In this document: positions 9,241 through 41,690 of the stretch, piece by piece | Layout of the letters: each line of letters begins with the position of its first letter | How positions within the stretch are numbered: position 1 is the first letter of the stretch | Assembly (NCBI RefSeq): GCF_041080865.1 | Contig: NZ_CP160906.1 | Span: 1,116,001 to 1,180,000 of the forward strand | DNA from: Psychromonas sp. MME1 | Lineage (GTDB): Bacteria; Pseudomonadota; Gammaproteobacteria; Enterobacterales; Psychromonadaceae | Reading direction: 5' to 3' | DNA: 64,000 bases | The notes under the pieces: model-generated | Databases searched by the model: none | The model's input: only the letters and a program-made list of their open reading frames with translations | Told to the model about the DNA's origin: nothing | Position numbers and translations under genes: made by a program

Positions 9241-9903
9241 TTATGGTTGCTGTAATATGTTGGAGGGCAATTCTGGCAATGAGTCGCCATCATTTTTCGC
9301 ACAAATCAGATATTCATTATGAAACTTAACATTTGATTTTGCGGCTCGCTTTTTATACAAAAATATATTTTCTGTAAAAGCAAGGTCGATCGCACATTGT
9401 TGCTCACCACGAAGATATAAAGAGAGTGGTTTTGTTAATATTTGCTGCTCATCGAAACAGTCATTAAGTTGCTGCACACAAACAATCAGTGAATTTTTGC
9501 CACCGCTATGACGGTTTAGTCGATCGCCCACAACGAGGTCTGTCGTAACTAACCAATCTTTTGACTCAAGGGCGGAGAATAATTGAATTAATTGGCTTTT
9601 ATCTATATTTTTAACCTGATTCTGCTCATCTAAAATTTGCTTATAACAGTGTTGTAAATGAATAAATTGCTCTTTTAAACGGGCGTTTTTATTTAAACTA
9701 CGTACCTGTTTTTGCCAATCTTTTAAAGTCTCCAATAATATAGAATCGAAGCGTTTATTCTTTATCGCCGTTGTGATCCAAGCAGCGAAGTAATGTGCTT
9801 CACTGAGCGCATTTTTAGGTGTTTTGCCAGTCGCTTGTGAAGCCGCTAAGTCAGTCAATGCACTATTAACGAGTGTATATATTTCCTGAGAAAAAAAAGC
9901 CAT
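9241..9903 (-). CDS. DUF2913-like conserved protein
   Basis: This 220-residue cytoplasmic protein resembles, from memory of its N-terminal half, the DUF2913 family of marine gammaproteobacteria. It starts with helices followed by a pattern like ATGKTPKNALSEAHYFAAW, a conserved RFD and a segment of the type LNKNARLKEQF. The C-terminal half is more variable. There is no signal peptide, membrane segment or catalytic motif, and the function is unknown. It is the first gene of a likely two-gene minus-strand operon. The divergent DUF1415 gene begins about 100 bases away, so both promoters lie in 9904-10000. Confidence 0.62.
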   Translation of the reverse strand: MAFFSQEIYTLVNSALTDLAASQATGKTPKNALSEAHYFAAWITTAIKNKRFDSILLETLKDWQKQVRSLNKNARLKEQFIHLQHCYKQILDEQNQVKNIDKSQLIQLFSALESKDWLVTTDLVVGDRLNRHSGGKNSLIVCVQQLNDCFDEQQILTKPLSLYLRGEQQCAIDLAFTENIFLYKKRAAKSNVKFHNEYLICAKNDGDSLPELPSNILQQP

Positions 9904-10000
9904 GTAAATCCTATCTGTTTAGACAAAATGAGACTATTTTAGCACTTTTATCTCAGTTGTTGCTATTATATTTAAAAACCAATTTTTAGGGTTCCTATTG

Positions 10001-10558
10001 ATGTCAAATGATAAACAACAGTTAATTAATGCAACACAGGCATGGGTTGAAAAAGTCGTCGTTAAATACAATATATGCCCCTTCGCGCGGCAAGAAGTAG
10101 AACGAGGCTCAATTCGCTATAGAGTGGTTGAAAGTAGTGATGTGGCTTCTGTATTAACATCATTAATAGAAGAGTGCTTTTATCTTACTGCTAACGAGGA
10201 CACAGAAACAACCATTATGATTTTAGCCAATGGCTTTGAATCTTTTGATTATTTTCTAGATCTCACTGATTTAGCCAATGAATTACTCTACGAGCAAGAT
10301 ATAGAAGGCATTTACCAGCTAGCCCATTTTCACCCAGATTACTGTTTCGCTGGCGAACCTGCTGACGATCCAGCCAATTATACTAACCGTTCACCTTATC
10401 CAGCGCTGCACATCATTAGGGAAGCTACAATGGAAAAAGCATTGAAAAACCATCCCGATCCCGATCAAATCCCACAACGGAATATACAATTTTCACGTAA
10501 AAAAGGGCGCGAATTTTTTATAAAATTACTCGAATCATGCCACAAAAATGAACGTTAA
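10001..10558 (+). CDS. DUF1415 family protein
   Basis: The 185-residue product carries the hallmarks of DUF1415 (COG3310). They are W-V-E-K-V-V near the N-terminus, NICPFAR, a central LANGFESFDYFLDL, the metal-site-like AHFHPDYCFAG and a C-terminal RSPYPALHIIRE. The biochemical function is not established; the conserved Cys, His and Asp residues suggest metal binding. I start at the ATG at 10001 rather than the TTG one codon earlier, because TTAGGG lies at a suitable distance. It appears to be a single-gene unit. Confidence 0.85.
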   Translation: MSNDKQQLINATQAWVEKVVVKYNICPFARQEVERGSIRYRVVESSDVASVLTSLIEECFYLTANEDTETTIMILANGFESFDYFLDLTDLANELLYEQDIEGIYQLAHFHPDYCFAGEPADDPANYTNRSPYPALHIIREATMEKALKNHPDPDQIPQRNIQFSRKKGREFFIKLLESCHKNER

Positions 10559-10817: not shown

Positions 10818-13800
10818 ATGGCCCAGCAAGCCTATTCATTATTGCGTATTATTATTATTGACAGTTTTTGGCCCGGTCAAGTCAATCAACTTGAATTGAG
10901 TGGACATACGCAACTTGAAGGCACAAATGGTGCCGGTAAAACATCACTAATGCGATTATTGCCCTTATTCTACGGGATGCGTCCAAGTGATATTGTCAGT
11001 AAACTTGATCAAGCGCGGAACTTCGCCGACTACTATTTACCCCGAGACTCCAGTATGTTGATCTATGAGTATCAACGGCCGTTTGGGCAAACTTGTATGG
11101 TACTTGCTTCTAGTGATGGTCGTGGGGTGCAGTTTAAATTGATCGATGCAGCCTATGATAGCAGCAACTTTATTGATGAAAATAAGCAAGCGTTAGCTAT
11201 TCGCGATGTGGAACGAAATTATAATAGTGCTGGCTATTATTGCTCGAATTATCTTGGTATTGATAAATATCGACAGGTTATTCAAAATTTACGTAGTGGA
11301 CGCAAAATAAAAGATATTCGCCAATTACAAAATCGTTTTTCATTTAGCGATCTCCCGATGCCCCACATTGATAAAGTTATTAATGGAACGATTGAAAAAA
11401 ATCTCGATTTTGATGCTGTCAAACGGATGCTGGTGGAGATCTGTAGTGACCATTTAGCGCGAAGTAATATCGCTGAAAAAGAGCAGATAAATCTTAATAA
11501 AGAGGAGATAAGCCATTGGTTAGCAGATATCCAAGCTAGTCGCGCGATTCAAAAAGTCGCAGACAAAATTACGCTTTGGCAAAATGATTTTAATAATCTA
11601 GATAGCTTATTAATCAAATTGCAGCACTTACATTTTGAAATCATCGAACACCAAAATAAACAAAATGAAAAACAAGAAGGACGCAAAACGCTTAAGGCGT
11701 CAACGCGAGATTCTCTGGATAAATTAGAGAGTGAATTAAAGAATGGCAGGGAATCACTGCAGCGCGATATTGCACAGTTAACGGCTAAAATTGAAGCTGA
11801 TCAAAGCCGTATAGAGTTACTTGATCAGGATAAACAGAGTTATGATGATAATGATGCGGCAAGCTTTCAGATAAAGGCGGAGCAAGCGCCTCGCATTCAG
11901 CAACAACTTAATGAAGTCAATGAAGTTATTGCGGCGTTTGAAGGCAATATTAACAAAATTCAACTAAAATTTGATAAGTTAATTCAAGATTTAACGCTGC
12001 AAAAATTAACGGATATCAGTGCAACAAAAGAGAAGATTTCTGCAATTAAAGAAGCGGGAAATATACAGTTAACAATAGTAAATGAAAACTATCAACACCA
12101 GCTAAGTCAGCTAAATGAAGCACTTAATAATACCTTCCTCAAACTTAATATCGAACAGAAAACGGTTGAAAACCAACTAACTCAAGCACAATTAGAGGCT
12201 CAAAATCCTGCCTTAGATAAAGAGTTGTTAGATGCGATCGAACATAATCAACGCCAGCTGCATGAGGCGCATGAAAAACAGACGCAACTATTGCAGCGAC
12301 AAAATAGCGTCACGAGTCAGTTAACATTGCTTGAAAAGCAACGTGATAAGTTACTTGATCTACATAAAAAAGAAAATCGGATTTATGAACAACTTAAACA
12401 GGAATGTTTGGCCGTTGAGCAGCAACTATTGCCCGATGAAGGTAGTTTGCAATATTTTTTATCTCATGAACCTTTAGCGCTCAATTGGAAAGAAAATATT
12501 GGTCGTTTACTCTCTTCCGAGCTGCTTGCACGCAAAGATCTCGCTCCGCAATGGGTCGGCCATAGTGACAGTTTTTATGGTTTACAAATAGAGTTGCAAC
12601 AACTCAAAGATAGCGATCTGCAACTGACAGAAAATGAATTACGAGAAAAAGCGGCATTATTAGATAACAAACGGGCAGAGAAAGTTGCGCAAATAAAAAT
12701 AGTTGAAGAGCAGCTGACAAATATCAAAAAACAGCTAGATAGTCATCAAATCACGCTTACCGAGGTGAAACAAACCTCTCAACAAAATGAACTCAAACTT
12801 GTGCAACTAAAAGTGCAAATGGATAATTTTGCGGATAAAAAATTACAGGCAATCAAAGAGGCAAATGTCATTGTTGATGGACGCATTAAAGAAATTCAAC
12901 ATGCGCAAAAAAATAACAGCAAAAAAATTGAAGAGTATCATGCAACGGCAAAAGAGCAGCGCTTTGAATTAAACAATCAAATGCTTGAACAGCGGATGAT
13001 GATTGAGTCTGATAGAGATAGCCAATTAGAACAATTAGAAGCACAGCTTAATGCGATAGAGCAAAGTACAAAGAGTCGTTTACTCGATTATAAAAAACAG
13101 AAGAATAGTGCCTTGAGCGACTTAGATCCCGATGGCGAAGTGGATAAACGTAGCCGTGAGCGTAAAACCTTACAGCAAACACTCGATGAATGTGCTGTTT
13201 GGGCACGTAAAGCGCGTGAATATAGTCAATTTATGAACGAACGGTACGTTCATCGTGATCAATTAGTTGAATTAAACCAGCATCGTAATATTGAAAAACG
13301 AGGATTTGAAAATAGCCTTGAAGATCTCATTATTGAAAAGGGTGAATTAATCAGTAATGACCAAAAGTTGCTTAAAAAATTGAATATACAGTTGCGAGAA
13401 AGCGATGAGCTATTAGCACAATTAGCTGAGAGTCAGCGATTATGTGAAAACAGCGGGATTGCGGTCTGTGTATGTGAGAGTGAACCTAGTAATCCAGCTG
13501 ATTTAACAGTTAGTTTCTGCTTTGATTGGCTTAAAGAGTTTAAAACGGTCGAAAAACGATTAACTGAGCAGCTAAACCGTTTTAATGACACTTTCAGAAA
13601 AAATCATTCAAGCAGTGAATTGTTTGAAAATTGGTTAAAATTAGTCGCAGATAATGATACTTATGATGGCGCCAAAAGCCTGTTCAAATATCGTAGTGCC
13701 ATTGCTGATCTGCTCAGTAGTGCAGAGCAGAAACAGAAAAATACTTACCAGTTAGTTACGGTTAATGCCAATATGATTAATGAATTTTATCAGCATATCG

Positions 13801-14510
13801 AAAATTTTGGTCGCCGTATAAAAATTATTGGTAAAAAGCTTTCCGAAAATGTCACCGCATTGGCACATTTTGATGCCCTTGCTGATATCAATGTATACAC
13901 GGTGATGAAACAAGAAGAGTTAGAATATTGGGGACCATTGCAACAATTTTCTAAATTATTCGAGCTGTATCGTGATGACCTACGTGAAGGACGCGGGGAA
14001 ATTCCCGATGATCTTGTTTATGCGATGCAAAAACTATCCACTTATTTACCCAGTGAAGGCTTTGTATTAGCACATGATAACCTCTTTGATATCGAGTTTT
14101 CTATCACTGAAAAAGGGCAGTTGAAACATGCCCGAAATGCGCGCCAATTAAAAAAAATCAGTTCAACAGGACTCTCTTATTTAGCAATGTTGTCTCTGTT
14201 TGCCGGGATACTAGGAATGCTTCGTGGCGCCACTGATTCAGCTTCGGTGGTGATATTGCCCGTCGATGAGCTCGGTGAATTAGCTGCAGAAAATATAGAT
14301 CTATTATTAAAAATGTTTGATGATAATAACATAGCGATGTTATCCGCCTCGCCTTCAACAGACCGTCACATACTTTCACTTTATAAGCGTCATTACAAAT
14401 TAAAAGATAACAAAATTTACCATGCAGAAATTCCAACATCACGTTTAGATGAACTACTCGCCCAACGTAAAATGGCGGACAATGCTACGGAGACCGTGAC
14501 TCATGTTTAA
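10818..14510 (+). CDS. Wadjet/Mks-type SMC-like ATPase (JetC/MksB)
   Basis: This 1,230-residue MukB-like ATPase is the motor of an SMC complex. Walker A is GTNGAGKTS (residues 35-43). Long heptad-rich coiled coils occupy roughly 270-560 and 600-850. The C-terminal lobe carries an ABC signature-like STGLSYLAML (about 1,114-1,123) and Walker B VVILPVDE with D1150 and E1151. The length suits JetC/MksB and is shorter than MukB (about 1,480). Its stop overlaps the next start by 8 bases, and MukE-, MukF- and TOPRIM-like genes follow. Known Wadjet systems extrude and cleave circular plasmid DNA, so this gene likely powers that loading. The motor gene comes first here, whereas in jetABCD or mksFEBG it is third. 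Confidence 0.88.
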   Translation: MAQQAYSLLRIIIIDSFWPGQVNQLELSGHTQLEGTNGAGKTSLMRLLPLFYGMRPSDIVSKLDQARNFADYYLPRDSSMLIYEYQRPFGQTCMVLASSDGRGVQFKLIDAAYDSSNFIDENKQALAIRDVERNYNSAGYYCSNYLGIDKYRQVIQNLRSGRKIKDIRQLQNRFSFSDLPMPHIDKVINGTIEKNLDFDAVKRMLVEICSDHLARSNIAEKEQINLNKEEISHWLADIQASRAIQKVADKITLWQNDFNNLDSLLIKLQHLHFEIIEHQNKQNEKQEGRKTLKASTRDSLDKLESELKNGRESLQRDIAQLTAKIEADQSRIELLDQDKQSYDDNDAASFQIKAEQAPRIQQQLNEVNEVIAAFEGNINKIQLKFDKLIQDLTLQKLTDISATKEKISAIKEAGNIQLTIVNENYQHQLSQLNEALNNTFLKLNIEQKTVENQLTQAQLEAQNPALDKELLDAIEHNQRQLHEAHEKQTQLLQRQNSVTSQLTLLEKQRDKLLDLHKKENRIYEQLKQECLAVEQQLLPDEGSLQYFLSHEPLALNWKENIGRLLSSELLARKDLAPQWVGHSDSFYGLQIELQQLKDSDLQLTENELREKAALLDNKRAEKVAQIKIVEEQLTNIKKQLDSHQITLTEVKQTSQQNELKLVQLKVQMDNFADKKLQAIKEANVIVDGRIKEIQHAQKNNSKKIEEYHATAKEQRFELNNQMLEQRMMIESDRDSQLEQLEAQLNAIEQSTKSRLLDYKKQKNSALSDLDPDGEVDKRSRERKTLQQTLDECAVWARKAREYSQFMNERYVHRDQLVELNQHRNIEKRGFENSLEDLIIEKGELISNDQKLLKKLNIQLRESDELLAQLAESQRLCENSGIAVCVCESEPSNPADLTVSFCFDWLKEFKTVEKRLTEQLNRFNDTFRKNHSSSELFENWLKLVADNDTYDGAKSLFKYRSAIADLLSSAEQKQKNTYQLVTVNANMINEFYQHIENFGRRIKIIGKKLSENVTALAHFDALADINVYTVMKQEELEYWGPLQQFSKLFELYRDDLREGRGEIPDDLVYAMQKLSTYLPSEGFVLAHDNLFDIEFSITEKGQLKHARNARQLKKISSTGLSYLAMLSLFAGILGMLRGATDSASVVILPVDELGELAAENIDLLLKMFDDNNIAMLSASPSTDRHILSLYKRHYKLKDNKIYHAEIPTSRLDELLAQRKMADNATETVTHV

Positions 14511-15126
14511 ACAAACCGTCCAACAGTTATTAACCGGTGCGGTGATCTGTGAAACTGCATTTGCTGAATTATATGCATATCTTAAAATCACAGAAAATGA
14601 ATCGCGTGTTAGTGATTTTTTAGCAAACTTAGATAGAAACCTAACCTATTTGGAGAGTGCGGATGCTTTTTATTGTACCTTTCAAGAGGTATCTCAAGAA
14701 AACAGCGCAGAGTTAACGTCATTGTTTACTGAGGTTCGCACCGTATTTAGACCGTTAGTGGAGTTCTTAGATCTCCTTTTAACGGCAACTCAGACGGACT
14801 TACCCTTACGTGCGAAAGCGATGGTAAATATTAACAAATTATTTGACCCCTTTGAAAACGACCAAACGTTGCGTCAACATCTGCGCAGGATCACAGCCAG
14901 TAAGCCATTTAAAACGAACAAGCTAGAAGCGCGCGAGCAACTGGTATTTATGTTTCAAAAATTGGAAGAGATGGGCTATTTAGTGCGCAAAAATAGTGGC
15001 AGTAGCCGTTACTACGCTACCGCACGGTTTGACATTATTTATCTCTTCATCGAATTTTTAAATGATTCTGAACGCGTGGACTTACCAGAAACAGAGCAAC
15101 AACAGCAAGAGGAGTTACTCTTCTAA
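14503..15126 (+). CDS. MukE/JetB-like winged-helix subunit
   Basis: The 207-residue product is the small accessory (KITE-type) subunit by position and size. It is helical, with a predicted winged helix near the C-terminus (REQLVFMFQKLEEMGYLVRK then SSRYYATARFDI). It ends in an acidic, glutamine-rich tail (about 195-207). In MukBEF and Wadjet complexes this dimeric subunit bridges the kleisin and the SMC arms. The ATG lies inside the end of the SMC-like gene (8-base overlap) and its stop overlaps the next start (TAATG), so translation is probably coupled. Assignment rests on context plus the winged-helix pattern. Confidence 0.72.
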   Translation: MFKQTVQQLLTGAVICETAFAELYAYLKITENESRVSDFLANLDRNLTYLESADAFYCTFQEVSQENSAELTSLFTEVRTVFRPLVEFLDLLLTATQTDLPLRAKAMVNINKLFDPFENDQTLRQHLRRITASKPFKTNKLEAREQLVFMFQKLEEMGYLVRKNSGSSRYYATARFDIIYLFIEFLNDSERVDLPETEQQQQEELLF

Positions 15127-16373
15127 TGGCAGGTTATGATGCTGGCGATGTTACTGATTTATTGAAACAAATTGGCAGTAATTCACAAATACTTGCCGAA
15201 ACGTATGTGTATGGTTCGATTTCAGGGGATCAAATAGATGCCAATAAGCTTAATGCTTTACAAAAAGCAGGATTAATTCGTCCTGATGATGAGCCGGGTG
15301 ATTACCGTACTACTTCTGAATTAAAACGTATGCTTAATCGTTTAATGCGTAAACAGAGTAGTTATCGCCAATTGACTGACATGGGAAAAGTTATTGATGT
15401 GCTCGATGATACCGTGCAAGATTTTCAGCTATCGGTACAACAAAATCAGCATGATGATGCCGAGTATTATATCGATCAATTAGATGATTTACTCTATGAG
15501 GCAAAGGAAAATCTGAATGTTAGTTTAGATAATATGCATTATGCCATTTCTAGTCAGTTTGGCTTTGTGATCAGTTTAAGTGCTAAGGTTCGTGAAAACG
15601 AGAAAGCCTTAGATTACGCGCAAAAATTATTAACGGAATTACAACAAATTGATCCTGAAGCATGTTATGAATGGACTAATTGGGCATGCCCGATCGATTT
15701 CGCTCGTAAAATTAGCGCATTTATTTATTGGTTTAAACAGACACTCGCACGTCTACGTTTTATTATTGATAACATGCGTTTGAGCTTGTTTAGGCTCAGA
15801 CGTGATGAAAAACAGGCAAGTTTGTTACGTAATATGGCCCGTTTTTTACGCAAACATCCTGAATTTGAGATCAGTGATGGGCTTTTTGAAGACCCTAACT
15901 TGAACGATAATCTTAAATTTGCACCGCCACTAAGAAATTTAAAAACCTACGTTGATCTCAAAAACAGCGCACATGAAGAGCGGTTAATTTCTATTGTCCA
16001 ATCGCTACGTAAATATAATAACGAATTACCAATAAACAAACGTCAAACTAATAGGGTAGAAATATCACCAACGGAACCGTTAATTACAAGCCATGATTAT
16101 TTTGAAGAGCAGGCAGAGCAGTTATTTGAACAAGCGATTATTACCGGTAATAAAATATCAGCAATTCAATACTGGCAAAATCAGCAGCAAAGTGAGCAGT
16201 TAATAGATCACTATATTGATCCCAAAGAGTGGATTGAATTAGTTTTTAGTTGTTATTGCAAATTGACCAATGAACAACAACATGCATTAGAGATCAACAT
16301 GAAAGGTGTAAAAGTTGGCGGTACGACTGATAACTACAGCTACAGCGATGTGCAGATATTTTTGAGAAGTTAA
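15126..16373 (+). CDS. MukF/JetA-like kleisin subunit
   Basis: This 415-residue protein fits the kleisin of an Mks/Wadjet complex. An N-terminal winged-helix-like region (about 1-80, with KLNALQKAGLIRPDD) is followed by a long helical middle (about 85-180, repeated DD/YYIDQLDDLLYEAK-type helices). The C-terminal region (about 330-415) should bind the ATPase head. There is no signal or membrane segment. The start overlaps the previous stop by one base and the next gene starts one base after its stop. In the canonical jetA-first order the kleisin is first; here it is third. Identification is from gene context and fold-like pattern, not a strong sequence motif. Confidence 0.7.
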   Translation: MAGYDAGDVTDLLKQIGSNSQILAETYVYGSISGDQIDANKLNALQKAGLIRPDDEPGDYRTTSELKRMLNRLMRKQSSYRQLTDMGKVIDVLDDTVQDFQLSVQQNQHDDAEYYIDQLDDLLYEAKENLNVSLDNMHYAISSQFGFVISLSAKVRENEKALDYAQKLLTELQQIDPEACYEWTNWACPIDFARKISAFIYWFKQTLARLRFIIDNMRLSLFRLRRDEKQASLLRNMARFLRKHPEFEISDGLFEDPNLNDNLKFAPPLRNLKTYVDLKNSAHEERLISIVQSLRKYNNELPINKRQTNRVEISPTEPLITSHDYFEEQAEQLFEQAIITGNKISAIQYWQNQQQSEQLIDHYIDPKEWIELVFSCYCKLTNEQQHALEINMKGVKVGGTTDNYSYSDVQIFLRS

Positions 16374-16374
16374 T

Positions 16375-17238
16375 ATGGATAAAAAACTATATCAATTTTG
16401 CCAGCGCAACTTTAAGACCCTGTTAAATGGAAAGTTAAAATATGCTCCATTATTATCACGTTTAAATTTAGAATATGGTTTTGGAGAAAGAAGAGGCGAT
16501 TACCTCTATTTTGATGATAATGATCGGCAGCGTTTAATTGAGCGTGTTCAGCAAGAAAATGATGTACATCTTTTTAGGCAGGATTATATCGACAGTAAAT
16601 GCCGTGTCGATAATGCGTTAAAGCAGCGCAACGAGAAAGTAAATTCCCAACCTGTTAGTGAAGGTTTTGTGCTCATTAATGCAATTGATCATTTACGTAT
16701 CAATGGCCAACACTTAAAGCTGCTCAATTTAACCTCCTTAGGCTGTTATATAGAAGCTTCTGAGATCACCGCCATTGACCACCCGTTTATCGTATTAGTT
16801 GAAAATCTCGCCATAATGGCAAAATTAGATGCCTTAATATTGCCAGAAAAGTTACGCGACGCGCTATTTATATATCGCGGTGATATAAAGCCAGCACAGC
16901 GAACAAATAGCGCCTACCAACTGTTTCGCCATTTTAAATCATCGCATCAATTAGTCTGCTTTAGTGATTTAGATCCCGCTGGAATACAGATTGCAGTTAC
17001 CTGTGGAGCACATTTTTGGCTTGCCCCTGAAGATTTTACTTTAGTTAATTCATCATTAACTGGCGATGAGCATGAGTGGTTCAATCAGTCAGAGGCGATA
17101 AAATGGTTAGCACGCAAAAATAATTTACCAAAAAGTTGCCAAACTGCACTTATTACCATGCAAAACAGTAAAAAGACGTTAAAACAAGAACATATTTTAG
17201 CGCATAATATCAAAATGAATTTATACCCATTGGATTAA
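16375..17238 (+). CDS. JetD/MksG-like TOPRIM nuclease, short form
   Basis: The 287-residue product ends in a TOPRIM domain. The catalytic Glu is E143 in FIVLVENLAIM, and the acidic DxD pair D198/D200 is in CFSDLDPAGIQIA. This matches the JetD/MksG nuclease (DUF2220/DUF3322 type) that cuts plasmids brought by the condensin. Canonical JetD proteins are roughly 380-400 residues, so this one has a reduced N-terminal arm region. It is the last gene of the four-gene operon, one base after the kleisin gene. No clear terminator is visible in the short gap to the convergent lipoprotein gene. Confidence 0.83.
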   Translation: MDKKLYQFCQRNFKTLLNGKLKYAPLLSRLNLEYGFGERRGDYLYFDDNDRQRLIERVQQENDVHLFRQDYIDSKCRVDNALKQRNEKVNSQPVSEGFVLINAIDHLRINGQHLKLLNLTSLGCYIEASEITAIDHPFIVLVENLAIMAKLDALILPEKLRDALFIYRGDIKPAQRTNSAYQLFRHFKSSHQLVCFSDLDPAGIQIAVTCGAHFWLAPEDFTLVNSSLTGDEHEWFNQSEAIKWLARKNNLPKSCQTALITMQNSKKTLKQEHILAHNIKMNLYPLD

Positions 17239-17730: not shown

Positions 17731-17916
17731 ATATCCCACCGGCATAAAAAAGGGTGTACGTGACTAGCCAAAATTGACTAATATACCACAAAGAATTATG
17801 ACATTAATCTTTGTGAAATAATAACTTAGATGCTAACTTTAATTTTAATATCCAAAATTATTTTTGAATAATTGCTATTAATGTGCTGCCACCAATTATT
17901 TCAGAAAGGAGCATTC

Positions 17917-18453
17917 ATGTTTAAAAAAAAATTATGGTTAAAGATTAAAAGAATATATGTCATCGCTATTTGTTCACTGCCAGTCTATTCCTTCGCAGAG
18001 ATAAAACCAACTAAAGTTGCCATAGATATTGGTGAAAGTCACGATAACATCGACATTTATCGTATCGGTTTACAACAAGAGTTCTCCAATTGGTTAGATG
18101 AAAAAGGTATCCCATTGGGCGGATATTGGGAAGCTTCATTTAATTATTGGGATGGGCAGCAAACTGATCTCTATGGTCTGTTCCTTGCGCCAGTACTGTT
18201 TTATCAGTTTTGCGACAGCTGTCGCCTTTCTCCTTATATAGAAGCGGGAATAGGGGGGGGATTCATTAATAAAAAAGAGATGGATAATAAAGATATGTCT
18301 ACCCATTTTCAATTTGAAGAGCGTATTGGGGTTGGTGTAAAAATGGGCCGTTTTGATCTCAATTTACGCTATATGCATTATTCAAATGCTGGTATGAAAA
18401 GCCCTAATCCAGGAATGGATATCTATTTACTAGGTGTTAGTTATCAATTTTAA
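17917..18453 (+). CDS. Lipid A 3-O-deacylase, PagL family
   Basis: PagL is an outer-membrane beta-barrel enzyme that removes the 3-O acyl chain from lipid A. The 178-residue precursor has a signal peptide cut after about YSFA. Aromatic-rich beta strands follow, and the C-terminal active-site motif is RYMHYSNAGMKSPNPGMD, with the catalytic His-Ser pair in HYS. The last residue is Phe, as usual for barrel assembly. The ATG at 17917 is chosen because AAAGGAG precedes it; an upstream in-frame ATG would add a segment that spoils the signal peptide. It is followed by a shared bidirectional hairpin with cysK. Confidence 0.85.
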   Translation: MFKKKLWLKIKRIYVIAICSLPVYSFAEIKPTKVAIDIGESHDNIDIYRIGLQQEFSNWLDEKGIPLGGYWEASFNYWDGQQTDLYGLFLAPVLFYQFCDSCRLSPYIEAGIGGGFINKKEMDNKDMSTHFQFEERIGVGVKMGRFDLNLRYMHYSNAGMKSPNPGMDIYLLGVSYQF

Positions 18454-33970: not shown

Positions 33971-34113
33971 AACAAAATTCAATAATAGCTGTTGGGTTTC
34001 ATTAAATTCAGTACAAAATATCCCTCAATTTACCTTCAGATCATATAAAATCATCTACATAAATGCCACAATACAACTCATTGAAATATAGCTTACATAG
34101 GTGGTTTTACTTC

Positions 34114-36579
34114 ATGCAAAACAACACGATAAACAAAGCAAAGCTGACAGAAACAGACATCATCACCAAATTCATTCTTCCAAGCATTAAAGATGCGGGT
34201 TGGGATGATATGACGCAAATACGCCAAGAGGTGAAACTGCGTGATGGTAAAGTGATTGTGCGTGGTCAACTGGGCATGCGCCAAACGGTAAAATCTGCTG
34301 ATATTGTGTTGTATCACAAACCAAGCCAACCACTGGCTGTGATTGAAGCTAAAGCCAACAAACACGATGTGGGTAAAGGCATTCAACAAGGTTTAGATTA
34401 CGCACGTTTATTAGAAGTGCCGTTTATCTTTGCCTCTAACGGTGATGGTTATATCTTTCATGATAAAACTAACCTACAGCAACTAGAAACAGAAATCAGC
34501 CTTGAACAGTTCCCATCGCATGAAGAGCTATGGCACAAATACTGTATCTGGAAAGGTTACAAATCAGAACACCTTCCTGTTATCACGCAAGATTACCATG
34601 ATGATGGCAGCGGTAAATCACCACGTTATTACCAACTACAAGCGATTAATAAAACGGTTGAGGCAGTCGCACAAGGTAAAGACCGAATTCTATTGGTGAT
34701 GGCAACGGGCACAGGTAAAACTTATACCGCCTTTCAAATAATTTGGCGCTTATGGAAAGCAAAAGCCAAAAAACGTATCCTATTTTTAGCCGATAGAAAC
34801 ATCTTAGTTGACCAAACCAAGACCAATGACTTTCAGCCCTTTGGTCAAGCGATGACCAAAATAACAGGGCGTAAAGTTGACCCTGCTTACGAGATACATT
34901 TAGCGTTATACCAAGCCTTAACGGGCCCCGAAGAATACCAAAAAGCTTTTAAGCAAGTTGACCCAGACTTCTTTGATTTAATCATCATTGACGAATGTCA
35001 CCGTGGTAGCGCCGCAGATGACAGTGCATGGCGTGAAATACTCGAATACTTTAACTCTGCAACACAAATTGGTTTAACGGCCACGCCAAAAGAGACAGAT
35101 GAAGTCTCTAACATCGATTACTTTGGTGAGCCTACTTACTGTTACACCCTTAAAGAAGGCATTGATGATGGCTTTTTAGCCCCTTACAAAGTGGTACGTG
35201 TTGATATTGATGTTGACCTGCAAGGCTGGCGACCAACCAAAGGGCAAACCGATAAAAATGGTGAGCTAATTGATGATCGCATCTATAACCAAAAAGATTT
35301 TGACCGTACCTTAGTCATTGATGAGCGTACACAGTTAGTGGCTGAAACCATTACCAGTTACCTAAAACGTACCGACCCAATGGCAAAAACTATTATCTTT
35401 TGTAACGATATTAATCACGCTGAACGTATGCGCAGAGCATTAGTTAACCTTAATCCTGAGCAAGTCGCTAAAAACGAAAAATATGTGATGAAAATTACCG
35501 GCGATGATGAAATAGGTAAAGCCCAACTAGATAACTTTATTAACCCTAAAAAGGCCTACCCTGTTATCGCAACGACTTCTGAGTTAATGACAACAGGGGT
35601 TGACGCTAAAACCTGTAAATTAGTGGTACTTGATCAAAACATAAAATCGATGACTAAATTTAAGCAGATCATTGGTCGTGGAACGCGTATTGATGATCGC
35701 TTCGGTAAACTGTGGTTCACCATTTTAGACTTTAAAAAAGCCACCGAACTGTTTGCCGATGATGATTTTGATGGTGAGCCAGTGCAGGTGATGACCCCAA
35801 CAGCCGAAGATATTATTGATGGCACGGGCGACATTGATAGCACAACAGAGCAAGAAGATGAGCAAATCAGTGAAAATGACTCACCAGATTACGATGCAAC
35901 AACAGTTGAAAACACAGGCGATGAAAGTAATGAACAGCCACCAAAGAATGAAGATTGGGGTGAAATAGCTAGTGGTGATGATGAAGAGCCACGTTTTATT
36001 AAATTCCATGTATCAGGCGTCACCGTTAAAAAAATGGCAGAGCGTGTGCAGTATTACGACAGTGATGGTGGCTTAGTCACCGAGTCATTTAAAGACTACA
36101 TCCGTAAAACCATGCAATCGCAATTTAGCTCGCTAGATGACTTTGTTAAACGCTGGAACGATGCTGAGCGAAAACAAATCGTGATTGATGAACTTGAACA
36201 AGCGGGCATTATTTGGAAAGCACTTGAAGAGGAAGTCGGCGTCGATCTCGATCCCTTTGATATGATTTGCCATGTTGTTTACGACCAACCCGCTTTAACG
36301 CGCAAAGAACGTGCAAACAACGTCAAAAAGCGTAACTATTTCACTAAATATTCGGACACAGCACAAACCGTGTTAGATAATCTCCTCACCAAATACGCGA
36401 ATGTGGGCGTACAAGAAATTGAGTCAAAAGATGCGCTCAAAGTACAGCCTTTCACAGATATTGGTAGACCGCTTGAAATAAAGAAAAAAGTGTTTGGCGG
36501 TAAATCAAAGTACGAGCAAGCCATTAAGGAGCTGGAATCTGAAATTTATCAGCGTCCACCAAAGCAACAAACAGCATAA
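34114..36579 (+). CDS. hsdR: Type I restriction enzyme R subunit
   Basis: HsdR is the translocating and cleaving subunit of a type I R-M enzyme. The N-terminal nuclease domain has the PD-(D/E)xK residues in SADIVLY and VIEAKA. The helicase core carries Walker A MATGTGKT and the DECH box IIDECHRG, then [11 protein letters not shown] and GRGTRI (motif VI). A C-terminal EcoEI-like region follows an acidic linker. I start at the ATG at 34114 (821 residues), because AGGTGG lies upstream; an ATG at 34063 lacks a ribosome site. hsdM follows after 45 bases. Confidence 0.93.
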
Positions 36580-36624
36580 AGTTAAACATTTATCGTCATA
36601 TTCGCATCAAACAAAGAGAAAACT

Positions 36625-38109
36625 ATGTCAATCAGTTCAGTTATTAAATCAATTCAAGACATCATGCGTAAAGACGCAGGGATAGATGGTGATGCACAGC
36701 GTTTAGGGCAAATGTCATGGTTACTATTTTTAAAAGTATTTGATGCACAAGAAGAAGAGCTTGAAGATGAACTAGACAATTATAAAGCGCCTATTCCAGA
36801 GCAATTTTTATGGCGTAACTGGGCTGAAGATGCTGAAGGTATCACGGGTGATTCATTGCTTGATTTTGTTAATGACGAGCTGTTTCCAAACCTTAAAAAC
36901 TTAACAGCACCACTAGACTTAAACCCGCGTGGTTACGTGGTGAAAGCCGCGTTCAGTGATGCCTTTAACTACATGAAAAACGGCACGCTGTTACGTCAGG
37001 TGATTAACAAGTTGAATGAAATTGATTTCACCGACTCGCAAGAGCGTCACATGTTTGGTGATATCTACGAACAGATTTTAAAAGACTTACAAAGTGCAGG
37101 TAACGCTGGTGAATTCTATACACCACGTGCCATTACTAAGTTTATTGTTAAAGTGACCGACCCAAAACTAAACGAGTCTATTATTGACCCTGCTTGCGGT
37201 ACAGGTGGCTTCTTAGCGTGTTCGTTTGACCATGTAAAAGATAACTACGTGAAAAACAGTAGTGACCATCAAGCATTACAAAAACAGATCCACGGTGTCG
37301 AGAAGAAGCAACTACCACACCTATTATGTACCACCAACATGATGTTGCATGGCATTGAAGTACCCGTGCAAGTAAAGCATGGCAACACCTTAAACAAACC
37401 GCTTGCCAACTGGGATGAATCCTTTGATGTGATTGTTACTAACCCGCCATTTGGTGGCACAGAAGAAGACGGTATCGAGAAGAACTTCCCAAGTGAGTTC
37501 CAAACCCGTGAAACAGCCGATCTATTCTTACAGCTGATTATTGAAGTGCTAAAGGATGGCGGACGTGCTGCCGTGGTATTACCCGATGGCACACTGTTTG
37601 GTGAAGGCGTAAAAACTAAAATCAAAAAGCTATTAACTGAAGAGTGTAACTTACACACTATTGTGCGTTTACCCAATGGTGTGTTTAACCCTTACACGGG
37701 CATTAAAACTAATATCCTCTTCTTCACCAAAGGTACACCGACCAAAGATGTATGGTTTTACGAGCACCCGTACCCAGAGGGCGTGAAAAACTATAATAAA
37801 ACCAAACCGATGAAGTTTGAAGAGTTCCAAACAGAGTTAGATTGGTGGGGCAATGAACAAGATGGCTTTGCTTCACGTGTTGAAAACAACCAAGCGTGGA
37901 AAGTATCCGTTGATGACATCATTAAACGTAACTTTAATTTAGATATTAAAAATCCCTACCAAGGTGAAGTGGTTAACCACGACCCAGAGCAACTGTTAGC
38001 AGAGTACCAAACACAGCAAACAGAAATCAGTGAACTGCGACACCAGCTTAAAACCATTTTAGGTGATGCCTTAAGTTCAAATAAAGAATCTTCAGGCGAG
38101 GTTAAGTAA
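36625..38109 (+). CDS. hsdM: Type I restriction-modification system M subunit (N6-adenine methyltransferase)
   Basis: The 494-residue HsdM methylates adenine in the recognition site and is needed for both modification and restriction. It has the N-terminal helical HsdM_N domain (about 1-130). Motif I is DPACGTGGF (188-196), and the catalytic motif IV NPPF (273-276) has a following GG. The C-terminal coiled helix (LLAEYQTQQTEISEL) docks on HsdS. Its stop overlaps the HsdS start by one base (TAATG), so translation is coupled. Confidence 0.96.
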   Translation: MSISSVIKSIQDIMRKDAGIDGDAQRLGQMSWLLFLKVFDAQEEELEDELDNYKAPIPEQFLWRNWAEDAEGITGDSLLDFVNDELFPNLKNLTAPLDLNPRGYVVKAAFSDAFNYMKNGTLLRQVINKLNEIDFTDSQERHMFGDIYEQILKDLQSAGNAGEFYTPRAITKFIVKVTDPKLNESIIDPACGTGGFLACSFDHVKDNYVKNSSDHQALQKQIHGVEKKQLPHLLCTTNMMLHGIEVPVQVKHGNTLNKPLANWDESFDVIVTNPPFGGTEEDGIEKNFPSEFQTRETADLFLQLIIEVLKDGGRAAVVLPDGTLFGEGVKTKIKKLLTEECNLHTIVRLPNGVFNPYTGIKTNILFFTKGTPTKDVWFYEHPYPEGVKNYNKTKPMKFEEFQTELDWWGNEQDGFASRVENNQAWKVSVDDIIKRNFNLDIKNPYQGEVVNHDPEQLLAEYQTQQTEISELRHQLKTILGDALSSNKESSGEVK

Positions 38110-39821
38110 TGCAGATTGAAAACTTAATCACCGAGCATATTGAAACGTGGACATCTGCCGTAAAGAAAAAAAATGCAACAGGGCGCGGTTCTAGCAAGAA
38201 GATAGAACTGTATGGTATTAAGAAACTACGTGAGTTGATTTTAGAGTTAGCGGTACGTGGTAAATTAGTGCCACAGGATGCAAGTGAGGAACCAGCTTCT
38301 GTTTTGCTTGATCGTATTGCAGAAGAAAGAGCATTGTTAATTAAAAATAAAACGATTAAAAAACCAAAGACACTTGGTGATATTTCAATAAAAGAATTAC
38401 CGTTTGTATTACCTTTGGGTTGGCAGTGGGCTCACAATATTGAACTGTTCACACTTACTAAAGGCAAAAAACCAAAAGAGCTATCGGATACCTTATCCAA
38501 GTTCCCATATTTAGATATTGAAGCGTTAGATAGGCACAACATTAGAAAATATACCAATGATGAAAAGTGCCCTATGTCCAAAGAGAACGACCTTCTAGTT
38601 GTTTGTGATGGTTCTCGTAGTGGACTAATTCTTAATGGTAAAATAGGTGTTATAGGTTCGACAATTGCTAGAATAGATACCTATAAATCTGTAAAAAATT
38701 ATATTCAGTTATATTTCAAACAAGCATTTACGCGTCTAAATTCCTCAATGAAAGGTGCTGCTATACCTCATTTAGACACAAAACAGCTCAGAGAAGACTT
38801 TCTAGCTTTGCCACCACTAAACGAGCAACACCGCATCGTAGCGAAAGTAGATGAACTAATGTTGTTATGTGACCAGCTTGAACAGCAAACAGAATCGAGT
38901 ATTGATGCCCACAAAACCTTAGTTGAAGTGCTGTTAAACACCTTAACGGATGCAAAAGATGCTACCGAGTTACAAACAAACTGGGCACGCGTGAGTGCGT
39001 TTTTCGATACCCTGTTCACCACAGAGCACAGCATCGACCAACTAAAACAAACCATCCTACAACTCGCCGTGATGGGCAAACTGGTTCCACAAGACCCAAG
39101 CGATGAACCTGTAAGTGAATTAATTGATAAAATATATAAAGAGCAATTCTCACGTAAATTAAACAGCAAAGAAAAGTTAGCCGTTGAAAATGAATATGAG
39201 TATGCAAGAAATACAATCATTAATAATCGAGTATTAGTAAAAGCTAGATTTATCTGTGATTTCATTACAAAAGGAACAACACCGTCTAAACCTGAGCTAT
39301 TAGATGACGGTGCCGTTCCATTTTTAAAAGTTTATAACATTGTAAAAAACACATTAGATTTCGCATATAAACCCATATTTATTTCGAAAGATACACACAC
39401 AGGTAAACTAAATCGATCAAGAGTTTTTCCTGGTGATGTCATCATGAACATTGTCGGTCCACCATTAGGAAAAGTCGCCATTATTTCAAATGAGTATCCA
39501 GAATGGAATATGAATCAAGCATTAGCAGTATTTAGACCTTTAGCAGGTATTAATTCTCAGTATCTATATTTCATATTACCAACTGACTCTATTTTGTCCT
39601 CTGTCTTAAATGAAGTTAAAGGTACAGCTGGTCAAGATAACCTTTCACTTGAGCAATGTAGAGATTTGCAAATACCAATCCCATCAATAAACGAACAGAA
39701 TAGAATAGTGTCTAAAGTTAAAGAGTTAATGGCAATCTGCGACCAACTAAAATCACAACTCAACCAAGCGCAACAAACTCAGCTTAACCTCACTGATGCA
39801 ATAATAGATAAGGCAGTATAA
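38109..39821 (+). CDS. hsdS: Type I restriction-modification system S (specificity) subunit
   Basis: The 570-residue HsdS determines the target sequence. It contains two target-recognition domains (about residues 95-235 and 375-530), each flanked by conserved helices. The half-subunit repeats are visible as LAVRGKLVPQD near residue 47 and LAVMGKLVPQD near 316, and as PPLNEQHRIVAKVDEL and INEQNRIVSKVKEL. The duplicated structure recognises a bipartite target. It is the last gene of the hsdRMS operon; a DUF3800 remnant starts 3 bases after its stop. The target cannot be predicted from sequence alone. Confidence 0.93.
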   Translation: MQIENLITEHIETWTSAVKKKNATGRGSSKKIELYGIKKLRELILELAVRGKLVPQDASEEPASVLLDRIAEERALLIKNKTIKKPKTLGDISIKELPFVLPLGWQWAHNIELFTLTKGKKPKELSDTLSKFPYLDIEALDRHNIRKYTNDEKCPMSKENDLLVVCDGSRSGLILNGKIGVIGSTIARIDTYKSVKNYIQLYFKQAFTRLNSSMKGAAIPHLDTKQLREDFLALPPLNEQHRIVAKVDELMLLCDQLEQQTESSIDAHKTLVEVLLNTLTDAKDATELQTNWARVSAFFDTLFTTEHSIDQLKQTILQLAVMGKLVPQDPSDEPVSELIDKIYKEQFSRKLNSKEKLAVENEYEYARNTIINNRVLVKARFICDFITKGTTPSKPELLDDGAVPFLKVYNIVKNTLDFAYKPIFISKDTHTGKLNRSRVFPGDVIMNIVGPPLGKVAIISNEYPEWNMNQALAVFRPLAGINSQYLYFILPTDSILSSVLNEVKGTAGQDNLSLEQCRDLQIPIPSINEQNRIVSKVKELMAICDQLKSQLNQAQQTQLNLTDAIIDKAV

Positions 39822-39964: not shown

Positions 39965-40651
39965 ATGACGATGCCACGCCCTGTTCGAATATTTCATATC
40001 ACCGCGATTGATAACTTAGATCTCATTTGTGAGCAGGGGGCATTAGTTTGCAAATCGTTAAGTGAACAGCAAGGTGTTGAGTATCACAACATTGCGCATG
40101 GCGGTGCACAAGGTATTCGCTCAAATAAACAAACGCCGAATCCACCGGGTGGATTAATACATGATTTTGTTCCCTTTTATTTTGCACCTCGTTCACCGAT
40201 GTTATCGGCAATTCACAATGGTCAGGTGCAAGGTTGTTTGTATGATCAAACAGCTATTATCTATTTTGAAACGACAATAGAAATTGCGTATCAGAATGGA
40301 TTACAGGATTTTGTATTTTATGATCGTAACGCAACCAAAGCTTACAGTCAGGATTGTACAGATTTACAAAAACTGAAAGATATAGTTGATTGGCAGACAT
40401 TGACTGAAAATCCTACGTTAGATGGATTTTGTAAGTACTTTTTTGATAAGCATAACGAGCCTCGCTATGTTGATAGAATGGAAAAAAGACAGGCTGAATT
40501 TTTGATTAAAGAGCAAGTTCCGCTCAATTGGATGACACGTATTGGTGTGATCGATACAAACCGAGCGCAACAAGTTAATGCCATTTTGGCTAAACATAAC
40601 GTAAACTTAACGGTAGATGTAATGACAGATTGGTATTTTTTAGGGCAATAA
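39965..40651 (+). CDS. darT: DarT toxin: DNA ADP-ribosyltransferase (DUF4433 family)
   Basis: DarT uses NAD+ to ADP-ribosylate thymidine (or guanosine in DarT2) in single-stranded DNA, which stops replication and can act as phage defence. The 228-residue protein begins IFHITAIDNL with the NAD-pocket His. It carries the YFAPRSPML segment (about 72-80) and ends with the catalytic glutamate E178 in KRQAEFLIKEQVPL. The full motif set suggests an active enzyme. Its partner darG starts one base after its stop. Confidence 0.93.
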   Translation: MTMPRPVRIFHITAIDNLDLICEQGALVCKSLSEQQGVEYHNIAHGGAQGIRSNKQTPNPPGGLIHDFVPFYFAPRSPMLSAIHNGQVQGCLYDQTAIIYFETTIEIAYQNGLQDFVFYDRNATKAYSQDCTDLQKLKDIVDWQTLTENPTLDGFCKYFFDKHNEPRYVDRMEKRQAEFLIKEQVPLNWMTRIGVIDTNRAQQVNAILAKHNVNLTVDVMTDWYFLGQ

Positions 40652-40652
40652 C

Positions 40653-41690
40653 ATGGCAATTGATTCAGTAACAGGCAACCTTTTAAAACAGCACGATGTT
40701 GATGCAATCGTTAACACTGTCAACTGTGTCGGCGTGATGGGAAAAGGTATTGCTTTACAATTTAAGAAACAATGGCCGGCAAATTTTAAAGCTTATGCAA
40801 CGGCTTGTAAAAATGAACAAGTGAAACTAGGCAGCATGTTTATTTATGAACTCGGTACATTAGCAACGCCTAAATATATAGTCAACTTCCCAACCAAAGG
40901 GCATTGGCGCAGTGCTTCAAGATTGATTGATATTGAAAGGGGTTTACAAGATTTAGCAAAGAAAATCACACAGCTGGGTATCACATCAATTGCAATTCCA
41001 CCCATTGGTTGTGGTCTCGGAGGTTTGTCTTGGTCAGAAGTAAAACCGCTTATCGTGAAGTATTTAGGTAGCCTTGAACATGTAGACGTTCGATTATTTG
41101 AACCAAACGAAGCAATCGGCGCAACAGAAATGCTAAACAATACCAAAAAACCGAAAATGACGGCAGGTCGTGCAGCTATTCTTACTTTGTTAGAAACGTA
41201 TCAAGCGGTCAATTATGGTTTATCTAAGATTGAAGTACAAAAACTCGCTTATTTTTTGCAAGAGGCGGGCGAAAACTTAAAACTTAATTTCATAAAACAC
41301 AACTTCGGCCCATACGCAGATGCACTACGTCATGCATTAAATACAATGGATGGTCATTATATAAAAGGTGTTGGAGATGGGGTTGTTGAATCACAAATCA
41401 CGCCCGTTGATGAAGCACTTGAAAGTGCAAAACAGTTTTTAGCTGAATCTAACACAGATATAAATGAACGAATAAGTAGAGTAAGCGAACTGATTGAAGG
41501 TTATCAATCCCCTTATGGTGTAGAGCTATTATCTACAGTACATTGGGTTGCAAAACATGAAAATTGCCACAATGCTAATGACGCTTTTCATGCAATTCAA
41601 CATTGGAATTTACGTAAAAAACAGCTTATGTCTGAAAAACATGTGCAAGCAGCGTGGGATCATTTGACTGCAACAGGATGGGTTAATTAG
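40653..41690 (+). CDS. darG: DarG antitoxin: macro domain DNA ADP-ribosylglycohydrolase
   Basis: DarG removes the ADP-ribose added by DarT and also binds it. The 345-residue protein has an N-terminal macro domain (1-150) with the ligand loop NCVGVMGKGIAL and the catalytic lysine K82 in NFPTKGHWR. The glycine-rich loop IPPIGCGLGG also matches. The C-terminal part (about 170-345) is the DarT-binding region (KIEVQKLAYFLQEAG). The one-base gap after darT ensures joint expression. Both genes look intact. Confidence 0.94.
   Translation: MAIDSVTGNLLKQHDVDAIVNTVNCVGVMGKGIALQFKKQWPANFKAYATACKNEQVKLGSMFIYELGTLATPKYIVNFPTKGHWRSASRLIDIERGLQDLAKKITQLGITSIAIPPIGCGLGGLSWSEVKPLIVKYLGSLEHVDVRLFEPNEAIGATEMLNNTKKPKMTAGRAAILTLLETYQAVNYGLSKIEVQKLAYFLQEAGENLKLNFIKHNFGPYADALRHALNTMDGHYIKGVGDGVVESQITPVDEALESAKQFLAESNTDINERISRVSELIEGYQSPYGVELLSTVHWVAKHENCHNANDAFHAIQHWNLRKKQLMSEKHVQAAWDHLTATGWVN

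Follow-up and report, generated by a model that had tools for sequence, protein, structure and literature searches.

Four genes at the locus

The window analysed here, a stretch of 64,000 nucleotides (nt) of Psychromonas sp. MME1 (Gammaproteobacteria; Enterobacterales; contig NZ_CP160906.1, positions 1,116,001 to 1,180,000), carries on its forward strand an operon of four genes that resembles the SMC (structural maintenance of chromosomes) systems MksBEFG and Wadjet. The genes are labelled A, B, C and D in window order, their jetABCD equivalents being JetC, JetB, JetA (putative) and JetD. A (10818-14510, 1230 amino acids) is an SMC-type ATPase of family DUF3584 in the position of JetC or MksB, B (14503-15126, 207 amino acids) an MksE/JetB-type (KITE) subunit, C (15126-16373, 415 amino acids) a probable kleisin of the MukF/MksF/JetA type, and D (16375-17238, 287 amino acids) a putative TOPRIM nuclease of the JetD/MksG type, family DUF7281. 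A and B overlap by 8 nt and B and C by 1 nt; C and D lie 1 nt apart. The preliminary description spoke of four tightly overlapping genes, which holds for A-B-C but not for D, which merely abuts C. Scans for promoters and terminators remained near the level of shuffled sequence.

Given that A matched Pfam DUF3584 with 1098 bits and D matched DUF7281 with 143 bits, and that the order A-B-C recurs in 67 loci, these are not chance open reading frames (ORFs). In A, the Walker A motif GTNGAGKT occupies residues 35-42, the signature SSTGLS starts at residue 1115 and the Walker B motif PVDEL at 1148, with D1150 and E1151; the preliminary description had named the same acidic pair and was right to within one residue on Walker A (35-43). 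Residues G35, N37, G40, K41, S1116, G1118, D1150 and E1151 were invariant in 16 aligned sequences, and a conserved region in the middle of the protein, around residues 539-577, may represent the hinge. The profile of A retrieved mostly coiled-coil matches from the PDB, which give no support, and the PADLOC Wadjet models matched neither A nor B nor C. The DUF3584 match, the intact motifs and a profile pairing with JetC nevertheless bear out the view of A as an SMC-like ATPase.

For the window's own B and C no Pfam match exceeded the cut-off, and B itself did not match MksE at E 0.01. At the level of the B family, MksE (PF21980) was matched by 27 of 37 members (best 3.6e-11) and DUF4194 by 9 of 37, which together with a profile link to JetB sustains the assignment of B as an MksE/JetB-type subunit. 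Profiles of B and C found no SMC-subunit match in the PDB.

Among 42 proteins of the D family, domain models were matched as follows: DUF7281 by 40, JetD_C by 6 and the TOPRIM domain of Topo VI-A/Spo11 by 3. The JetD models of PADLOC gave several weak matches in the family, any single model reaching at most 9 of the 42 proteins, and weak matches to the window's D (best E 3e-4). K88, E143, N144, D198, D200 and G203 were invariant in all 42; E143, D198 and D200 are the conserved glutamate and DxD expected of a JetD TOPRIM domain. The D profile matched Spo11, Topo VI-A and MksG in the PDB, all weakly (E 0.18-1.1), with MksG third and weakest (E 1.1). An AlphaFold model of D alone was unusable, its predicted local distance difference test score (pLDDT) being 38. 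In RefSeq, relatives on plasmids are named "ATP-binding protein" for A and "hypothetical protein" for B, C and D, with D once a "DUF2399 domain-containing protein".

The profile links were obtained by comparison with operons of DUF3375, a family that we take to be the JetA/MksF of type I systems. Profiles were built from 19 of 20 fetched regions (L161 was too short), JetB and JetC being assigned there by size and position. Using hhalign, A paired with JetC at 97.1% (columns 24-872), B with JetB at 83.7% (E 8e-6) and D with JetD at 90.8%, and, C with JetA set aside, the other 12 pairings reached at most 29.4%, the highest being C with JetC. The pairing of D and the TOPRIM matches of its family uphold the earlier reading of D as a TOPRIM protein.

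The putative kleisin and known SMC systems

C was the most difficult of the four to place. Its profile paired with that of JetA at 1.3%, which amounts to no sequence link, and kleisin models matched 0 of 41 members of its family. A structural model built from two sequences, of low confidence (mean pLDDT 53.8), has a winged-helix-like N-terminus (residues 6-62), long helices (64-243), a linker, and then C-terminal helices with a beta-hairpin. When it was compared by Foldseek with 350,542 PDB chains, the top two matches by E-value were each chain C of a MukBEF structure, one at E 0.027 (probability 0.30) and one at E 0.051 (probability 0.16), both with low TM-scores; judging by their length, these chains would be MukF. 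MukE-MukF and MukF entries also appeared lower in the list, and no match fell under E 0.001. Against a kleisin speak the matches of higher Foldseek probability, which were plain helical bundles, and the low pLDDT of the model itself. We consider C a likely kleisin; what speaks for the MukF-like kleisin of the preliminary description is the predicted layout and the ranking of the MukBEF chains, and not a sequence match to JetA or to kleisin models.

Like the Wadjet systems JetABCD I-III, the operon combines genes for an SMC ATPase, a KITE-type subunit, a TOPRIM protein and what is probably a kleisin, with A, B and D linked by profiles to JetC, JetB and JetD. It differs in gene order, which in jetABCD terms is C-B-A-D with the SMC gene first (types II and III were compared via PADLOC models only), in the length of D (287 amino acids versus 382-434 in 17 DUF3375 loci) and in the absence of D from 18 of 66 loci. 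Because PADLOC misses A-C, the order differs and no sequence similarity ties C to JetA, the operon appears to lie outside the Wadjet types catalogued in PADLOC, and its sequences suggest a divergent relative of MksBEFG and Wadjet within a MukBEF-MksBEF-Wadjet superfamily. Of the Wadjet identity proposed earlier, membership in this superfamily and the links to JetC, JetB and JetD stand; a match to the PADLOC types does not, D alone matching them, and weakly.

MksBEFG of C. glutamicum and MksBEF of P. aeruginosa are likewise close, since the B family matches MksE and MksG is among the weak PDB matches of D, but a DUF3375-type MksF kleisin was found in 0 of 24 genomes of the window's genus. The MksBEFG operon is described in a passage of PMC10123090 as mksFEBG. 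According to a part of PMC7485682, MksBEF is sporadic and typically occurs alongside Smc-ScpAB or MukBEF; for the complex of the window, in contrast, no clear partner was found. Lamassu is also an SMC-like system acting against plasmids and phages, but the description of LmuA, LmuB and LmuC with LmuA effectors, in the part of PMC10586767 that deals with it, sets it apart.

Chromosomal MukBEF proper has the same SMC-MukE-MukF type of layout, small-subunit genes of similar size and a condensin role such as we propose here, and its chains are closest to the C model by E-value. None of the four proteins, however, matched the Pfam models of MukB, MukE or MukF. A, at 1230 amino acids, is shorter than the MukB proteins of the order, which match at E 1e-100 and better in frames of mostly ~1,470-1,550 amino acids, and a TOPRIM gene is attached to the operon; MukBEF is not known to have a TOPRIM partner. 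MukF was detected in 0 of 24 genomes of the genus, MatP in 0 of 24, and a strong MukB match in none. We reject MukBEF proper, which has next to no probability of being right: by family models, the first three proteins are not MukB, MukE and MukF.

In the literature searched, DUF7281 was not mentioned, and nothing was found on gene order in Wadjet or MksG systems, on MksB, Shewanella, MukB and condensin, on Psychromonas with MukB, or on the phylogenetic distribution of the three condensins; the 2011 paper on the MksBEF family or the 2020 classification of ABC ATPases may already include the clade. DUF3584 appears in five papers, in one of them as the label of a "chromosome segregation ATPase" on Methanoperedens plasmids, Wadjet being unmentioned there, and in another as a weak phage match.

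Gene order, spread and the separable gene D

To assess the spread of the gene order, 68 loci were read, namely the window and 67 loci hand-picked, not at random, from the DUF3584 matches in the class and order. A was found in all 68 (in L028 as a fragment) and B and C in 67, and wherever the three genes occur they stand in the order A-B-C (67 of 67). In the 19 DUF3375 operons, JetA is followed by a JetB-sized and then a JetC-sized gene (19/19, by size and position), and in 17 of them a JetD-sized gene comes next. The order ATPase, MukE-like subunit, probable kleisin, putative nuclease, as opposed to the kleisin-first order of jetABCD and mksFEBG, is thereby confirmed. Seven plasmid regions were read, out of 44 plasmid records with a match; six carry A-B-C-D and one a fragment of A alone. 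The recurrence of the order in 67 loci and in six of seven plasmid regions indicates that the permuted order is a stable trait of a clade, as the preliminary description had suspected.

The six complete plasmid operons (L181, L182, L184-L187) lie on large plasmids of Rhodoferax, Acinetobacter, Vibrio, Azospira and Pseudomonas; in L184, A and C are each in two pieces. They may represent an anti-plasmid system that is itself carried by plasmids. Two scans of viral contigs found no relative, and a scan of genome contigs with a broad alignment gave one named relative, Salinimonas chungwhensis (L135), which has A-B-C without D.

In a tree of 67 A proteins, computed by a quick search under LG+G4 with L028 left out and with long branches flagged, the family labels cluster, requiring 24 changes versus 42.7 after shuffling, with imperfections such as family f188, which alone needs five. 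Two large groups hold most of the family-wide copies. The group containing the window's genus comprises 28 rows, two of them without D, and the group with most rows of f188, f2, f190, f195 and f200 comprises 24 rows, 14 of them without D. The other two absences of D are in f185, whereas D is retained in the rest of the copies, which are long-branched, and in the six plasmid operons. Three genomes (G547, G444 and G738) have an A of the window type and share their genus with a genome of the other type, with one copy in each, which looks like horizontal replacement that left the copy number unchanged.

Within the window's genus, the loci of 23 of 24 genomes (all but G631) were read, and D is present in 21. 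In pairwise comparisons of these 21 four-gene loci, mean identities were 68.4% for A, 79.3% for B, 71.7% for C and 45.3% for D, with D the lowest in 210 of 210 pairs. The 1-nt overlap of B and C is kept in 23 of 23 loci. The distance from C to D is within 100 nt in 18 loci, 482 nt in one and 4.9-5.4 kb in two; a further two loci lack D. In L064 and L072, C is separated from a full-length D by some 5 kb of unrelated genes (threonine-dehydrogenase- and KBL-like ORFs as judged by eye). A whole-genome search for DUF7281 found none in G552 (a draft of ~120 contigs with an estimated completeness of 100%) and none in G640 (79% complete), and G552 had no match to the searched condensin families either. 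In both genomes the motifs of A are intact and A-B-C are constrained, with a nonsynonymous divergence (dN) of 0.06-0.16 and a synonymous divergence (dS) above 1.3 or saturated (in G552, above 1.6 or saturated).

Across 66 loci (L028 and L108, which ends at a contig edge, were left out), 48 have D and 18 lack it, a distribution that takes a minimum of 12 changes on the tree of A. L085 was counted as lacking D, since a call of 72 amino acids inside C was judged false, DUF7281 not being found on the contig. Downstream ORFs of 19 loci were read by eye for a replacement nuclease, and no gene was common to the set; one ORF is common to L094 and L097 and another to L021 and L090. D is dispensable in many relatives. 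A nuclease that drifts, is displaced or is lost beside a constrained core raises the question of how, if that core is a condensin, the chromosome tolerates a DNA-cutting arm.

Condensin complement of the genus and proposed role of the operon

DUF3584 exceeded the cut-off in 10 of 369 genomes spanning the class and in 122 of 394 in the order, and was present in each of the 24 examined genomes of the window's genus, in one copy each (partial in G631, at a contig edge). By comparison, DUF3375 exceeded the cut-off in 31 of 315 genomes. In family-model searches of the same 24 genomes, ScpA and ScpB were each found in none; for MukB one weak match was obtained (G490, E 8.3e-5) and none in the other 23 genomes. 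In the window's own genome, SMC_N gave 38 matches, the best being a RecF-like ORF between gyrB- and dnaN-like ORFs; all frames were at most 744 amino acids long except an SbcC-like frame of 1245 amino acids beside an SbcD-like ORF, and a frame of 573 amino acids would by its size be RecN. DUF2397, presumably the JetA of type II systems, had no match in this genome, but no control matched either, so this result is uninformative.

These absences leave room for another reading, in which the operon is a core chromosome-maintenance complex and the main condensin of the genus is a different complex that has so far escaped recognition. The searches covered named families, SMC_N misses A itself, G490 shows a weak MukB match, and many relatives carry DUF3584 together with ScpA. 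On the other hand, the models of ScpA, ScpB, MukB, MukF and DUF3375 gave positives in controls or in other genomes of the order and found nothing strong in the genus, and we regard the reading with a hidden main condensin as improbable.

In other families the counts were taken from transcribed lists in which genomes matching no searched family are mostly missing, and are thus not strict fractions. DUF3584 was found in every listed genome of f188 (32), f190 (12), f184 (11) and f196 (9), and ScpA occurred alongside it in 32, 11, 10 and 8 of them, respectively; in f2, DUF3584 was listed for 14 genomes versus 32 with ScpA. Family f185 (e.g., G435 and G665; loci L106 and L110) has no ScpA match and only weak MukB matches (E ~8e-6 to 5e-4), yet DUF3584 in only eight listed genomes; DUF3375 occurs in 16 of its genomes, two of them also with DUF3584. 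This family may be another lineage that relies on complexes of the MksBEF type.

Taken together, the phyletic pattern favours a role of the operon at the chromosome in the window's genus. A, B and C would form an SMC/MksE/kleisin complex that uses ATP to bind DNA and extrude loops, and, because 24 of 24 genomes carry A and no other condensin was clearly found, this core complex would by elimination be the likely chromosome condensin. The combination of a loop extruder with a TOPRIM nuclease is described for JetD/MksG in parts of PMC10123090 and PMC10586767, and by analogy D may dock on the A-B-C motor and cut plasmids and other small DNA circles when these have been extruded completely, the chromosome being too large to trigger the cut. 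Plasmid restriction by the operon would be plausible. As a whole, the explanation of a Wadjet-like complex that works as the condensin of the chromosome and bears the nuclease as an optional arm for cutting plasmids is in our judgement about evenly poised between right and wrong. The bolder version, that an immune-type SMC complex became the only condensin of the genus, that most members keep the plasmid-cutting nuclease so that one motor folds the chromosome and polices plasmids, and that lineages without D mark the transition from a defence machine to a condensin only, is offered more tentatively, as a suggestion that falls somewhat short of an even chance.

MksBEF of P. aeruginosa provides a precedent for a role in chromosome organisation (a passage of PMC7485682), and a section of a review raises, as speculation, the idea that MukBEF and MksBEF once served in defence. 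The locus would be a second, divergent and sharper case, in that a Wadjet-like complex is present in every examined genome of the genus without a clear Smc-ScpAB or MukBEF.

Several observations weigh against a condensin role. A escapes the SMC_N model, and a further divergent condensin could go unnoticed in the same way; in G490 the weak MukB match may pass the cut-off of 23 bits (the tallies give 191 matched and 182 over cut-off). Some bacteria may live without any condensin. Family f185 likewise lacks ScpA matches and strong MukB matches, yet few of its genomes are listed with DUF3584, and the A tree shows the locus to have been exchanged horizontally. Finally, D is kept in 21 of 23 loci of the genus, loss being the exception there, and the relatives with D in six of seven plasmid regions, together with the listing of DUF3584 for only four f201 genomes, look like mobile defence.

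The last two points lead to the alternative of a further, divergent Wadjet type that acts purely in defence against plasmids (or phages) and happens to be fixed in the genus. The conservation of E143, D198 and D200 of D in 42 of 42 proteins would fit such a system, as would the rapid divergence of D, which is often seen in defence effectors, and the restriction-modification and DarTG systems ~17-24 kb downstream. Pure defence accounts less well for a complex that is present in all genomes of a genus without another clear condensin, as compared with DUF3375 in 31 of 315, and for loci that lack D time and again beside a conserved A-B-C; moreover, ten flanking genes had no match to defence models except for an exonuclease-I-like (SbcB) protein. 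We consider this alternative unlikely, though a serious contender. A reading of the operon as simply a Wadjet plasmid-restriction system is not supported, given that A-C match no PADLOC model and D only weakly, that C has no sequence match to JetA, that the operon is core-like in the genus and that D is dispensable in many relatives. A dual role, with the complex acting as condensin and D as its plasmid-cutting arm, is our best guess for reconciling the retention of D with the mobile-looking plasmid relatives.

Further features of the window surround the operon. PADLOC detected a type I restriction-modification operon with restriction, methylase and specificity subunits (34063-39821), directly followed by a DarTG toxin-antitoxin pair (39965-41690). 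Cross-family synteny of the flanking genes was not suggested, except for one transporter-like ORF in six of nine f188 loci. Nearer to the operon lie a gene for a PagL-type lipid A 3-O-deacylase (17872-18453) and, upstream, the DUF2913 and DUF1415 genes (9241-10558), neighbours of the operon in 13 and 14, respectively, of the 23 loci read in the genus; overall, four neighbouring genes recur in 13-15 of these 23 loci.

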